Positions 8,161 through 14,929 of a stretch of 55,101 bases of DNA are shown one piece after another. The notes beneath the pieces are model-generated. The model saw only the letters and a list, made by a program, of their open reading frames with translations. It searched no databases and was not told the origin of the DNA. Source of the stretch: Gemmatimonadota bacterium (GTDB lineage Bacteria > Gemmatimonadota > Gemmatimonadetes > Longimicrobiales > Gaopeijiaceae). The stretch is taken from contig JADFRS010000001.1 in the NCBI GenBank assembly GCA_022561145.1, positions 40,322-95,422 on the forward strand, read 5' to 3'. A program made the position numbers and the translations under genes. The number at the start of each line of letters is the position of its first letter. The first letter of the stretch is position 1.

Positions 8161-9981
8161 ATGACCATGCCATTCTCTCCCTGTCCATTTTTCGCCTTCT
8201 TCGCATGGTGCTTGGGTGCGCTGGCCGTGTCTGCTCACGACGCCTCCGCCCAGGAATGTCCGAACGGCCGGATCTCGAACATCTTCGTCGACTCGCACTC
8301 CATCTTCGACATGTCACAGATCGGTGAGGACACCCGGGGCAGGTGGGCGTACAGCATCGCGAACTCCTTGCACTCCCGTACGAAACCGGGTTTTCTCGAG
8401 GCCGAGCTGTTGCTGCGCGTCGGTGACTGCGTCGACACCTTCTTGCTGGAAGAGTCGGAGCGCATTCTTCGTCAATATGATTTTCTGGCGAGAGTCGATG
8501 TGTACGCTGTCCTTCAGCCCGACGGCTCACAGCACATCGTGGTCGACACTCAGGACGAGTGGTCCACGCGGGTCGACCTCCTCTTCCGCTTCGATACCGG
8601 CGTGGACTTCGAGGGTATCAATGTCGCCGAGGAGAACTTCTTGGGCAGAGGCGTGCTGCTCGGCGGCTTTTGGCGGAATCGCCGAGAACTGCGTGATGTC
8701 GGCGGGAGCATTGGACTTCCTCGCACATTCGGTACACGCCTGAACAGCTCATTGCTGTTGGGTACCACGCGGATCGGGGGCTTCGAGAGCCAGGGGTTCA
8801 CATACCCGTTCGTGGGCGAAGTAGGACACTGGGCCGCCCGCGAGGTCTACTCCCGCCGCGAGGATCTGTTCTCGTACGCTCTCGAGGATCACCCCACCCT
8901 GTCGCACGTGGTGCTCCCTTTCGAGACGGAGCGAGCCGAAGTGACGGTGGCGGCTCGGGTGGGGCCACCGGGAAGCCTCACGCTGTTCGGCATCGGCATA
9001 TCGCGAGAGGAGCTGCGCTTTCCGGACGTGGCCAACCGGGTCGAGGCGGTCACCGACAGCGATTTCGGGGACCGGACGCCCGCGGCGCCCGAGCTCGCCG
9101 CTGAGGCGTTACGACTTACCCGTGAGACCGAGACCACCCGCCTGAATTTCCTGATCGGCAAGCGCAACATCCGATTCCAGAGGGAGATCGGCCTCGACGC
9201 GCTGAGGGGAGTCCAAGACGTGCCGCTGGGGACGGAGATCGCGCTCACGTTTGGTAAGAGCATTGGATTCCTGGACTCCGACGGACCGAGGGAGGTCGAC
9301 GACATCTTCACGCGCCTCCGCCTGTTCGGGGGTGTCGCCCCCGGCCGGTGGATCCTCACGGCGGGCGTGACAATCGAGGGTCGGCATTTCTCGGACGATG
9401 AGCCGGTGGACAGGACGGGCTGGCGCGACGTGCTCGCGGAGGCCGACGCCTACGTGTACTGGCGGCCGAGAGGGGCTTCCGGCCGCCACACGGTCTTCGC
9501 CCGCCTGTCGGCCGCGGGCGGCTGGAACATGGACTCCCCGCTCCAGCTCACGCTCGGCGGACCCGAGCAGCTCCGCGGATTCCACTTGGACCGCTTCCCT
9601 GGCGGCCGGCGGGTGGTCGCCACCATCGAGGACCGGATCCTCTTGGGGTGGACCGGCGGAGGAATGCTTGACCTGGGCCTGACGGTGTTCGGCGACCTGG
9701 GGCGAACGTGGGAGGGAGATGTACCCTTCGGCATGGACTCCGGCTGGCAATCCACCGTGGGAGCCGGCATACGGCTGGGATTCCCCAAGGGGACGCGCAG
9801 CGTCGCGCGGATAGACATCGCCGTGCCCGCGAACGGGCCCAACGCGTTCCGCGCACCGATGCTTCGGTTTACCGCACTGGAATTCCTGGGCTTCCGCATT
9901 GGCTTCGCCGACGGGCAGATGCAACGGAGCCGGCGAGCCGGCGTGGCATCGACAATCCTGCCGGGCCCGGCGGGGGGCTGA
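8161..9981 (+). CDS. Omp85/BamA-superfamily outer membrane protein with a single apparent POTRA domain
   Basis: Signal peptide, one POTRA-like region (ISNIFVDS...LLEESERILRQYDFLARVDVYA), then barrel-like alternating strands with GGPEQLRGFHLDRFPGGRRVVATIEDR. Confidence 0.75.
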   Translation: MTMPFSPCPFFAFFAWCLGALAVSAHDASAQECPNGRISNIFVDSHSIFDMSQIGEDTRGRWAYSIANSLHSRTKPGFLEAELLLRVGDCVDTFLLEESERILRQYDFLARVDVYAVLQPDGSQHIVVDTQDEWSTRVDLLFRFDTGVDFEGINVAEENFLGRGVLLGGFWRNRRELRDVGGSIGLPRTFGTRLNSSLLLGTTRIGGFESQGFTYPFVGEVGHWAAREVYSRREDLFSYALEDHPTLSHVVLPFETERAEVTVAARVGPPGSLTLFGIGISREELRFPDVANRVEAVTDSDFGDRTPAAPELAAEALRLTRETETTRLNFLIGKRNIRFQREIGLDALRGVQDVPLGTEIALTFGKSIGFLDSDGPREVDDIFTRLRLFGGVAPGRWILTAGVTIEGRHFSDDEPVDRTGWRDVLAEADAYVYWRPRGASGRHTVFARLSAAGGWNMDSPLQLTLGGPEQLRGFHLDRFPGGRRVVATIEDRILLGWTGGGMLDLGLTVFGDLGRTWEGDVPFGMDSGWQSTVGAGIRLGFPKGTRSVARIDIAVPANGPNAFRAPMLRFTALEFLGFRIGFADGQMQRSRRAGVASTILPGPAGG

Positions 9982-10018: not shown

Positions 10019-10729
10019 ATGCCGCCCCGGACGTTGGAGCTCGAGCTCGTGGACGGGCCGGTCCAAAACCTCGACGAGTTGGCCGACTCCCTCACGAAGA
10101 TGTCGCAGGCCAACAGGTGGCTGGGCGGACAACGAGCACTCGAGGCCCACCTCGAGCCGCTACTCAGCGCAGCCCCGCGAGCCAGGGTGCTCGACGTTGG
10201 AACCGGCAATGCACGCACCCCGGCCCGCATCCGTGCATGGTCCGAAAAGCGTGGATGCCGGTGGAACGTAATCGGGCTCGACCCGAATCCTCAGACCATC
10301 TCCGTTGCCAATGCGGCGTCGCCCAAGGGCCTCCCTCTGGTGCGCGGTGACGGGCTCACACTCCCGTTCCCCGACGATACCTTCGACGCGGTGGTTTGCA
10401 TGCTCACGATCCACCACTTCGACGACGGCGGGGCCGTACGTCTGGTGCGTGAGATGGCACGCGTCAGCCACGGCTTGGTGCTCGTGAACGATCTCGAGCG
10501 TAGAAGGCCGAACTACCTCGGCGCTCAGCTCTTGGCGGAGACACTGTGGCGTAACGACCGGCTCGCCCGCTTCGACGGCCCGGCGTCGGTCCGGCGTTCG
10601 TTCACGGCCGAGGAGTTGTTGGCGGTCGGGAGGGAGGCAGGCCTCACGAATGTTCGTGTGCGGCGACACTTTTTCTATCGGGTGGTGCTCAGCGGAGGTG
10701 TCGTGGGATTAGGGAGCGTCGCCTCGTGA
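10019..10729 (+). CDS. Class I SAM-dependent methyltransferase
   Basis: RVLDVGTGNARTPARI motif I, GLDPNPQTISVAN, LPFPDDTFDAVVCMLTIHHF. Start ATG 10019 (GTG 9995 possible). Confidence 0.9.
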   Translation: MPPRTLELELVDGPVQNLDELADSLTKMSQANRWLGGQRALEAHLEPLLSAAPRARVLDVGTGNARTPARIRAWSEKRGCRWNVIGLDPNPQTISVANAASPKGLPLVRGDGLTLPFPDDTFDAVVCMLTIHHFDDGGAVRLVREMARVSHGLVLVNDLERRRPNYLGAQLLAETLWRNDRLARFDGPASVRRSFTAEELLAVGREAGLTNVRVRRHFFYRVVLSGGVVGLGSVAS

Positions 10730-12048
10730 AGGGTGGGCATTCCCACGCTCCCAGGCGGTCCACGCCCGACGTCCTGATCGTGGGCTCGGGACCGGCCGGA
10801 AGCGCTCTCGCCATTCTGTTGAGGCGCCGGGGCTGGTCGGTGACGATGCTCGAACGGGCATTCCACCCGCGCCCGAAGGCGTGCGGGGAGTGCGTCAATC
10901 CAGGTGGCGTGCGCGCGCTCTCCCGACTCGGCTTGTTGGACTCGATTCTTGCGCTGCGCCCGGCCCGCCTCGAGGGCTGGTACCTTCGCACCGCAGAGGG
11001 TCACCAGGTCGATACACGCTTCCGGATGGAGGACGGCTTTGGCCTGGGCCTCCCGAGGGCCGATCTGGACGCCGCACTGGTGGGTGAAGCCGTGCGGCAC
11101 GGCGCCCGCCTTCATGAGGGCGTCACGGTGCGGGCCATCGAGTCGCAACGTGGACCAGCCCCGACGAGCGGATCAGGAGGGGGCCCACAGCAACTCGCGG
11201 TAGTGACCCGGGAGGCCGACGGCCACTCCGCTTGCCGAACCGCGCCACTCATCGTGGGCGCAGACGGGCTTCGGTCGGTCGTGGCGCGCGCCATCAACCG
11301 GACCGATCCCGTACCGCTGCGGAGAAAGGTTTCTATCACGTGCCGGCTGAGCGGCTCCGGCCCCACGCGACGGAGCGGACTCCTCTGGATGGGAGGCTTT
11401 GGTACCATAGGGCTGGCGCCGGTGCACGCCGACCGGCAGCTGTGGAACGGCACGGTGGTGGTCGATTCCGCCCGCTGGGGACGCTCGCTGGCAGGCAGGC
11501 CCTTGGAGTTTTTTCAGGAGGCATTCACGACCGCGGGGCTGGGCTGGGACTCGGAGCCGATGGTGCTGGAGGGGCCTTGGTGCAGCGGTCCGTTCGACGT
11601 GCCGCGGCGCCGGGCGGTTTCCGATGGCGTGCTGCTGGTGGGCGACGCGGCGGGCTACTACGATCCACTCACCGGACAGGGTATCTACCGAGCCTTGCTG
11701 TCCGCTGAGCTCGCTGCCCCGGTCATCGACAGGGCGCTACGCCGGGCCGGCGGCCGGCGACCATCAGGAGGCCCTCCCCCACCCCTCTCCCGAGCGAGCC
11801 TGGCACCGTACGAGGCCCGACTTCATCGAGCCTTCAGGGTAGGCCGCGGTATCCAGCGAGTCATCGAGGGCGTCGTGTCCCGCCGACGAGTCCGGGGCCT
11901 GGTGTTCGGGGGCTTACAGCTTGTCCCCGCGGTCGGAGACGCGTTGATTCGCCTTACCGGTGACGTCGCCACGCCGTATTCTCTCCTGAACCCGGCGCTC
12001 CGAACCCGTGGTGGTCCAGTGGAGCCGACGATCACACCGGGAAGGTAG
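10726..12048 (+). CDS. FAD-dependent oxidoreductase (geranylgeranyl reductase / flavin monooxygenase-like)
   Basis: DVLIVGSGPAGSALAILLRRRGWSVTMLER FAD fold; KACGECVNPGG; GDAAGYYDPLTGQGIYRAL. GTG start overlaps the methyltransferase stop. Confidence 0.9.
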   Translation: MKGGHSHAPRRSTPDVLIVGSGPAGSALAILLRRRGWSVTMLERAFHPRPKACGECVNPGGVRALSRLGLLDSILALRPARLEGWYLRTAEGHQVDTRFRMEDGFGLGLPRADLDAALVGEAVRHGARLHEGVTVRAIESQRGPAPTSGSGGGPQQLAVVTREADGHSACRTAPLIVGADGLRSVVARAINRTDPVPLRRKVSITCRLSGSGPTRRSGLLWMGGFGTIGLAPVHADRQLWNGTVVVDSARWGRSLAGRPLEFFQEAFTTAGLGWDSEPMVLEGPWCSGPFDVPRRRAVSDGVLLVGDAAGYYDPLTGQGIYRALLSAELAAPVIDRALRRAGGRRPSGGPPPPLSRASLAPYEARLHRAFRVGRGIQRVIEGVVSRRRVRGLVFGGLQLVPAVGDALIRLTGDVATPYSLLNPALRTRGGPVEPTITPGR

Positions 12049-12108
12049 TCTGGACCACACCCGCCCTGGCCACGAAGTTACACTGCCCCCCGGTGTTCGA
12101 GGATTCCA

Positions 12109-12579
12109 ATGCTGACGATCGACGAAACCATCACGACTGCTCCGGCCGACGCGTGTTTCCAGGCGGCGGCCGATGTCGAGCGTTGGCCGGAAATCCTGCC
12201 CCACTACCGTTGGGTACGGTTCCACCACAAGGACGGATTCGCCAAAGGTGTGGTCGAGATGGCTGCGTGGCGCCCCTTTGGGCCGCTCGGCTACCCTACG
12301 TGGTGGCTCTCCGAGATGGATCACGATGCCGAAAACCGGCGGGTCTTCTACAAGCACGTAGGCGGAGTCACGAAAGGCATGGATGTGCGTTGGGAGGTCG
12401 ACGAGTTGCCTGACGGCAAGACCCGAATCCGGATCGTGCACGAGTGGACCGGCCCCGCGTGGCCCCTCATCGGGCGACCGGCGGCCAACCTCGTGATCGG
12501 GCCCCAGTTCGTCAGCCACATCGCCAGGCGAACCCTGGCGGGTGTCGCCCATGCGGCAGAACAGGTGGCACTCCGATGA
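12109..12579 (+). CDS. SRPBCC-family protein (polyketide cyclase/dehydrase-like)
   Basis: MLTIDETITTAPADACFQAAADVERWPEILPHYRWVRF is a typical SRPBCC START-fold N-terminus. Confidence 0.8.
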   Translation: MLTIDETITTAPADACFQAAADVERWPEILPHYRWVRFHHKDGFAKGVVEMAAWRPFGPLGYPTWWLSEMDHDAENRRVFYKHVGGVTKGMDVRWEVDELPDGKTRIRIVHEWTGPAWPLIGRPAANLVIGPQFVSHIARRTLAGVAHAAEQVALR

Positions 12580-13838
12580 CGACTGACGGGCGCGACGCAC
12601 CCAACAGAGTGTTGATCACCGGGATCGGCCCGATCACCGCGTCGGGGATCGGAGTGGACCGCTTGTGGGCAGGTCTCCACCGCGGGTCGTCACCCGTGCG
12701 CGACGTGACCCGTTTCGACGTCTCGTCCTACCGTTCTCGCCTGGCCGCCGAGATCGAGGACTTCGACCCTCAAGACTATATGGGTAGAACCCAGGCCCGC
12801 CGTCTCAACCGATTCGGCCAATTCTCGGTGGCCGCCACGGGCCTGGCGCTCGCGGACGCCGAACTCCGGGCATCCCAATTGAAGCCGGAACGTGTGGCGG
12901 TCCAGATGGGGTCCGCCTTGGGGGGGATCATCCAGGCCGAAGAAGAGTTCCCGAAATTCTTGAGCAAGGGTTTGAAATCGGTCAGCCCCCGCCTGGCTCT
13001 CGGAGTCTTCTGCGGTGCAGCGAGTTGCAACGTGGCCATCGAGTTCGGCTTCACCGGGCCGAATTCCACCAACGCCATGAGCTGCGCTTCGGGAACCATC
13101 GCCATCGGCGATGCGTGGCGCCTCATTCGGGCGGGCATCGTCGACGTGGCGGTCGCCGGTGGGAGCGAGGCGCCCCTCGGACCCCTCTCGTTCGGCGCGT
13201 TTTCGCTCATCCGGGCGATGAGCGCGCGCAACCATGAGCCGTCGAGGGCTTGCCGCCCCTTCGACGAGGATCGGGACGGCTTCGTGATGGGCGAGGGCGC
13301 CTGCGTGCTCATTCTCGAGAGCGAGGCCCACGCGCAGGCGCGGGACGCGCACGTCTACGCGGAAATCAGAGGGTTCGGCACGTCCAATGATGCACACCAC
13401 ATGGCGGCCCCCCGTCCGGACGGAGCCGAGGCCGCACGCGCCATGGCCGAGGCAATCGCCATCGGCGGGATTGCCCCGGACGAGGTCGACTACGTGAACG
13501 CCCACGGCTCCTCCACCCCCCTCAACGACGCTACAGAGACGCGCGTGATCCACTCCGTGTTGGGCGACTGGGCGGACAAGGTCCTGGTGTCGGGCACCAA
13601 GCCCTATTACGGGCACGCACTCGGTGCGTCTGGCGCGATCGAGGCGGGCATCTGCGCACTCACTATCCAGCGGGGATGGGTCGCTCCCACCTTGAACCTC
13701 GATACCCGTGGGGAAGGATGTGATCTCGACTACGTCGGAAACGAAGGGAGAGAAGCAACCGTGGACACCGCGGTCACGAACTCCTTCGGCTTCGGAGGGA
13801 TCAATGCGAGCCTGTCTTTGAGGGCTTTCTCGCTCTGA
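12576..13838 (+). CDS. Beta-ketoacyl-ACP synthase (KAS II/FabF-like)
   Basis: Apparent C-H-H catalytic residues: AMSCASG, NAHGSSTPLNDATE, SGTKPYYGHALGASGAIEA; NSFGFGGINASL. ATGA overlap with the SRPBCC gene. Confidence 0.93.
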   Translation: MTTDGRDAPNRVLITGIGPITASGIGVDRLWAGLHRGSSPVRDVTRFDVSSYRSRLAAEIEDFDPQDYMGRTQARRLNRFGQFSVAATGLALADAELRASQLKPERVAVQMGSALGGIIQAEEEFPKFLSKGLKSVSPRLALGVFCGAASCNVAIEFGFTGPNSTNAMSCASGTIAIGDAWRLIRAGIVDVAVAGGSEAPLGPLSFGAFSLIRAMSARNHEPSRACRPFDEDRDGFVMGEGACVLILESEAHAQARDAHVYAEIRGFGTSNDAHHMAAPRPDGAEAARAMAEAIAIGGIAPDEVDYVNAHGSSTPLNDATETRVIHSVLGDWADKVLVSGTKPYYGHALGASGAIEAGICALTIQRGWVAPTLNLDTRGEGCDLDYVGNEGREATVDTAVTNSFGFGGINASLSLRAFSL

Positions 13839-14068: not shown

Positions 14069-14929
14069 ATGTTTTCAACTTCCCGAGGCCTGGACTCCTT
14101 CGATCAGTACCTGCAAGACGTAGAGAAATACCCCCTAATCCAGGACCCCGCGGAAGAGCGGGCGCTGGCACGCAGGGCCCGCACCGGCGATAAGGAAGCC
14201 GCCGAGCGTCTCGTTACCGCGAACCTCCGGTTCGTGATCTCCTACGTGAAAAAGTATCAGGGCCGCGGCTTGGGCCTGGCCGAGTTGGTGTGTATCGGCA
14301 ACGAAGGCCTGCTCAAGGCCGTGAAGAAGTTCGATCCCGACAAGGGCGTGAAGTTCATCTCCTACGCCGTGTGGTGGATCCGCCAGACCGTACTTCAGGC
14401 TCTGGCCGAACAGACGCGCTCTGTACGGATTCCGCTCAACCAAAACTCGAACCTGGTCAAGCTCGCGCGCACCGACACGCAGCTCACGCAGCAGTTGGGC
14501 CGCTCTCCGACGATCAAAGAGCTTTCGAAGGAGATGGGCGAACCCGAGGAGACCCTGCGGGCGCTGCGCCGGGTGGCCGCGAGCGAGCTCAGTCTCGACG
14601 CGCCCATCGACCGTAGCGATCGGGACAGCGCGAGCTTTGGTGAGCGCTTTGCTGGAGCCGACGCAGGGGACATCGAGCAGGACGTCGAGGCCATCGCGCG
14701 CCGCGACTATCTCGAGGGGATGTTCGACGCCTACCTCACGGAGCGCGAGCGCAAGATCCTCTACCTCTACTATGGCCTGGACGACGGTGAGGAGCGGACG
14801 CTAGAGCAAATCGGGTCGCTGCTCGGGGTCACCCGCGAGCGCATCCGACAAATCCGGAACCGTGCGTTCGAGAAGCTTCGCGAGAGCCCACATGGTGAGT
14901 CCCTGTCCGGCTTCTGGACCGCCAACTAG
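14069..14929 (+). CDS. RNA polymerase sigma-70 family factor (RpoD/SigA-like, short, group-2-like)
   Basis: DSFDQYLQDVEKYPLI, NLRFVISYVKKYQGRG, DLV-like ELVCIGNEGLLKAVKKFDP, KFISYAVWWIRQ; region 4 LEQIGSLLGVTRERIRQIRNRAFEKLR. Confidence 0.94.
   Translation: MFSTSRGLDSFDQYLQDVEKYPLIQDPAEERALARRARTGDKEAAERLVTANLRFVISYVKKYQGRGLGLAELVCIGNEGLLKAVKKFDPDKGVKFISYAVWWIRQTVLQALAEQTRSVRIPLNQNSNLVKLARTDTQLTQQLGRSPTIKELSKEMGEPEETLRALRRVAASELSLDAPIDRSDRDSASFGERFAGADAGDIEQDVEAIARRDYLEGMFDAYLTERERKILYLYYGLDDGEERTLEQIGSLLGVTRERIRQIRNRAFEKLRESPHGESLSGFWTAN

Follow-up and report, generated by a model that had tools for sequence, protein, structure and literature searches.

Gene content of the locus

The window, that is, the whole stretch of 55,101 nucleotides that was analysed from a Gemmatimonadota contig, contains four co-directional open reading frames, referred to here as MT, FAD, SRPBCC and KAS:

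10019-10729, + strand: MT, ATG start; class I SAM-dependent methyltransferase, UbiE/Methyltransf_11-like
10726-12048, + strand: FAD, GTG start; flavoprotein of the geranylgeranyl-reductase superfamily/PHBH fold
12109-12579, + strand: SRPBCC, beginning 60 nt after FAD; aromatase/cyclase-like protein
12576-13838, + strand: KAS, ATG start; FabF-like ketosynthase of a separate clade

The stop of MT and the start of FAD share the letters GTGA, and the stop of SRPBCC and the start of KAS share ATGA; both overlaps, and the common direction of the genes, had been read in an earlier note on this DNA and are confirmed from the ORF coordinates. Scanning against a consensus revealed no promoter of the sigma-70 type within the four-gene stretch. 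Comparison with Pfam and NCBIfam places MT in Methyltransf_11 (2.6e-15; a PRK06202-like match is weak) and FAD in FAD_binding_3 (1.4e-20), with 114.6 bits against the geranylgeranyl-reductase superfamily model, under its cut-off of 158.8; in Pfam, SRPBCC matches Polyketide_cyc (4.9e-9) and KAS matches the N- and C-terminal ketoacyl-synt domains (4.9e-42 and 1.1e-32, respectively). MT is predicted to methylate a ring, at O or C, and its homologues are found 5′ of FAD in nearly all related loci. FAD is predicted to be a ring hydroxylase/oxidoreductase: its AF2 model (pLDDT 85) was matched by Foldseek to flavin halogenases, aromatic monooxygenases and one geranylgeranyl reductase.

No type III PKS, ACP or second ketosynthase adjoins the four genes, in keeping with the earlier note, which had seen no chalcone synthase-like gene, chain length factor (CLF) or ACP next to them. 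The genome-wide search that it had proposed found no type III PKS in the source genome, which is 89% complete, and located ACPs only on contigs C87 (with fabF), C141 and C53. The flanks of the operon hold a large ORF at 8164-9981, which has no Pfam match and is outer-membrane barrel-like by eye, and a sigma-70-family gene at 14069-14929. An ORF of the former type lies immediately 5′ of MT in many Gemmatimonadota loci, and the sigma-factor gene stays beside SRPBCC-KAS even where MT-FAD has moved off. Both recur in Gemmatimonadota but did not appear in the Paenibacillus loci that were inspected, and we regard them as context.

KAS is distinct from the housekeeping FabF

The Cys-His-His residues of KAS that had been picked out by eye are indeed kept (C170, H310 and H347), alongside K342, and all four are invariant across the KAS clade. 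The source genome carries a separate FabF, 43% identical to KAS, in a plsX-fabD-fabG-acpP-fabF set on contig C87 (all gene names except fabF and acpP were read from translations), and a separate FabF-like gene was present in all 22 of the other genomes checked. A 60-sequence tree unites the operon KAS proteins of Paenibacillus and Gemmatimonadota in one clade with a support of 100, so the possibility that KAS groups with housekeeping FabF as the only fabF of the genome is not borne out. Twelve positions are fixed in this clade and differ in FabF, including A114-L115, F145, G147, C151, N166, M168, S169 and S312, which would lie close to the residues that in FabF form the acyl pocket and dimer interface and near the nucleophile. 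KAS is the single ketosynthase of the operon, in which no CLF was found, and the only others found in the source genome are the FabF on C87 and a third KAS on C53. The latter was considered as a possible partner and rejected, as it sits in a FabA-FabA-KAS-ACP-acyltransferase set unlike the four-gene operon. The genes of this set (L005, G000:C53:1-8883), with two FabA-like members and a divergent KAS, stand in a row and are reminiscent of an aryl-polyene cluster or another of type II-like character.

The SRPBCC protein resembles aromatase/cyclases

Judged by profile and by structural model, SRPBCC is closest to the type II PKS aromatase/cyclases WhiE-ORFVI, TcmN and ZhuI. The SRPBCC profile matches WhiE-ORFVI (2.4e-8), BexL and TcmN (7.6e-6), whilst unannotated proteins of the START type score 0.22 at best (0.22-0.27). 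Foldseek with the AF2 model (pLDDT 92) returned TTHA0849 (2D4R) as the top match, together with ZhuI (TM 0.84-0.86), WhiE and TcmN. Residues W26, Y33, W65, W66 and W95 are invariant in the SRPBCC alignment and align to W28, Y35, W63, W65 and W95 of TcmN/WhiE, which we take to be pocket-lining residues. The catalytic Arg69 of TcmN is not conserved, the aligned position being an invariant Met70. SRPBCC is predicted to fold and cyclise a poly-β-keto chain.

Conservation and distribution of the operon

A scan with the FAD protein yielded 63 loci, about half of which carry MT-FAD-SRPBCC-KAS in this order. The order recurs in Gemmatimonadota and in Paenibacillus with differing flanking genes; the four genes are a conserved, transferable operon, and their arrangement is far from chance. 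A lack of synteny in relatives, which the earlier note had named as something that would refute its reading, was not found. Amongst 395 sampled genomes of Gemmatimonadota, the SRPBCC profile detects members in 229, spread over 98 of 138 genera; for Paenibacillaceae the figure is 24 of 250. No SRPBCC relatives were found on plasmids. FAD and SRPBCC occur together in 218 genomes (odds ratio 123), and in three genomes where MT-FAD has no adjoining SRPBCC-KAS, the latter two genes are found elsewhere, still paired. Four Gemmatimonadota loci (L023, L024, L025 and L037) have an amidohydrolase or cation-efflux gene 5′ of MT-FAD and a metallo-β-lactamase-fold gene 3′ of it.

Alternation with type III PKSs

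Gemmatimonadota also have operons of the order MT-FAD-type III PKS, and it is the position of the type III PKS that SRPBCC-KAS occupies. The earlier assignment of MT and FAD to a type III PKS (alkylresorcinol) context is therefore upheld. For the counts that follow, weak PF00195 matches under about 40 bits were left out, since the majority have the look of KASIII-type enzymes; the line of 50 bits was the analyst's choice. Of 22 genomes whose MT-FAD is of the window type, SRPBCC without a strong type III PKS is found in 14 and the reverse in eight (p 3e-6); across the 395 Gemmatimonadota genomes, four have both, 41 a type III PKS only, 225 SRPBCC only and 125 neither (Fisher p 4e-13; p 8e-5 when counted by genus), although such p-values, here and in Paenibacillaceae, overstate the evidence because related genomes are not independent observations. 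Of the 250 Paenibacillaceae genomes, none has both, 120 have a type III PKS only, 24 SRPBCC only and 106 neither (p 5e-8), meaning that a strong type III PKS is found in 0/24 SRPBCC genomes and 120/226 others; many of these may be BpsA-like enzymes of the alkylpyrone type, so that the exclusion in this family may stem from redundancy within a wider class of products. In six of the eight MT-FAD genomes that lack SRPBCC, no MT or FAD dedicated to the type III PKS lies near it.

The FAD tree and the contrasts within genera are a better guide than these p-values. Four genera (g6, g16, g59 and g70) contain both states, SRPBCC and type III PKS, never in one genome. In the FAD tree, a quick tree whose root depends on a selected outgroup that does not itself form a single clade, the type III PKS genomes L019, L022 and L038 are nested amongst those of the ketosynthase type, with L038 beside L062 at a support of 100, and the deeper branches are Ktedonobacteria, Methylomirabilota and Myxococcota, with type III PKSs. 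The type of synthase changes four times on this tree, compared with 13.6 times when shuffled. The pattern fits one early gain of KAS and SRPBCC on a type III PKS background, followed by several swaps.

Some genomes run counter to the alternation. The four that have both SRPBCC and a type III PKS include G144, where the type III PKS is separate and ICMT-linked, an arrangement of the alkylpyrone kind, and G043, which has a Methylomirabilota-like type III PKS arrangement adjoining an MT. A strong FAD match with neither synthase was seen in six genomes, three of them 95-100% complete (G057, G097 and G173) and three 80-86% complete (G195, G356 and G363). Gemmatimonadota loci L151 and L158 carry pairs of a BpsAB-like type III PKS and an ICMT, probably of the alkylpyrone type. 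Methylomirabilota loci L047, L048, L054 and L056 have the order type III PKS-MT-YceI-FAD, in which YceI may bind the lipid product.

A proposed pathway

The observed gene content and order, protein families, clade separation, cyclase-like fold and pattern of replacement are best accounted for, with somewhat better than even probability in our estimation, by an alkylresorcinol/hierridin-type MT and FAD pathway where a CLF-free, FabF-derived KAS and an SRPBCC aromatase/cyclase have taken over from the type III PKS. To judge from the sequences, the operon appears to make a fatty phenol-type lipid. The substrates, ACP source, number of extensions, ring type and product that we infer are as follows. 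The fatty-acid ACP would hand a long-chain acyl group to KAS, which would carry out about three extensions with malonyl-ACP and no ketoreduction; SRPBCC would bind the resulting poly-β-keto chain and guide it to close into a ring of the resorcinol or resorcylate kind; this ring would then be methylated by MT, and its hydroxylation or oxidation by FAD would give a methoxylated alkylphenol, hydroquinone or quinone lipid. The use of a housekeeping ACP, already suggested in the earlier note, is likely, as the operon has no ACP and the genome has acpP. The hybrid pathway suggested there also looks right, with MT and FAD of the type III PKS kind beside KAS and an aromatase/cyclase-like SRPBCC. The outline given by that note therefore stands, whilst its description of the genes as tailoring genes without a PKS does not: it missed that SRPBCC and KAS are most likely the ring-forming synthase itself, in place of the type III PKS.

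There is, in our view, about an even chance that this represents an undescribed minimal aromatic PKS, in which a homodimeric, CLF-free FabF-type ketosynthase works with the fatty-acid ACP and an SRPBCC aromatase/cyclase, and that this synthase and type III PKSs have repeatedly taken each other's place within a single lipid pathway of Gemmatimonadota and Paenibacillus. If so, two enzyme logics, a type III PKS and a FabF-type ketosynthase with an aromatase/cyclase, would serve one ring-forming step of one conserved pathway, and most of the genera sampled from a little-studied phylum would possess a small aromatic synthase with neither a CLF nor a dedicated ACP. Paenibacillus would provide a culturable test bed, and a likely function could be given to genes that, in hundreds of genomes, are at present named by domain only.

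Alternative explanations

The product may differ from the one proposed: KAS and SRPBCC may be a type II-like synthase in which the former elongates a fatty acyl chain once or a few times and the latter cyclises or binds it, giving an alkylpyrone, a tetronate-like compound or a simple β-keto lipid that is then acted on by MT and FAD, so that the tailoring is common to type III PKS pathways and the ring is different. The type III PKS relatives yield pyrones as well as resorcinols (PMC8086630), the exclusion in Paenibacillaceae may be against enzymes of the alkylpyrone type, and the lack of conservation of TcmN Arg69 points the same way; against this, the closest relatives of SRPBCC are aromatase/cyclases and the MT-FAD order is that of alkylresorcinol operons, and we regard a different product as unlikely, if worth keeping in mind. 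Less probable still is a role in the modification of a membrane lipid or quinone, with KAS supplying an unusual fatty acid, SRPBCC acting as a Coq10-like lipid carrier and no aromatic polyketide being made. The SRPBCC/Polyketide_cyc family does include lipid-binding proteins, TTHA0849 heads the Foldseek matches, and FAD and MT are weakly similar to UbiH/UbiE; the profile nevertheless favours aromatase/cyclases over START-type proteins, and such a role leaves the alternation with type III PKSs unexplained.

We consider it very improbable that KAS arose by duplication of the housekeeping FabF and that the four genes are mere neighbours without a common function. In favour of this, KAS scores 489.9 bits on the fabF model, just below the cut-off of 493.75, but such an identity was rejected on the separate fab operon, the tree and the synteny: a housekeeping fabF lies elsewhere in all genomes checked, the KAS clade is fully supported, and the gene order is kept across two phyla.

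Comparison with known systems

The phenolic-lipid operon srsABC of Streptomyces and BpsAB of Bacillus combine a type III PKS with a methyltransferase and give alkylresorcinol/quinone or alkylpyrone lipids; the srs operon also has a flavoprotein, and the BpsB-type methyltransferase is ICMT-like and not a class I SAM methyltransferase. The four-gene operon shares with them the pairing of a synthase with a methyltransferase and, with srs, the flavoprotein, and differs in that their synthase is a type III PKS and in the ICMT-like nature of the BpsB-type enzyme. In the hierridin operon hidABC of Cyanobium/picocyanobacteria and in operons of Planctomycetota, an MT, an oxidoreductase and a type III PKS make alkylresorcinol products (PMC8086630, PMC10896814). 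Here the likeness, which is one of gene order and enzyme type, extends to a small three-function operon with the order MT, FAD-type oxidoreductase and synthase; the synthase itself is a type III PKS (HidC) in those operons and a FabF-type KAS with SRPBCC in the present one. No published account of the version with KAS and SRPBCC was found in a literature search of partial coverage, and Gemmatimonadota are absent from the phyla of a KS-CLF catalogue (PMC10132072). With the type II aromatic PKSs (whiE, tcm and R1128), the operon has in common a Cys-His-His ketosynthase with a conserved Lys, an SRPBCC aromatase/cyclase, and tailoring by MT and FAD enzymes. Type II PKSs have been described as needing KS/CLF and ACP (PMC12664062), in contrast to the operon described here, where a FabF-like ketosynthase, presumably homodimeric, stands without a CLF or a dedicated ACP.
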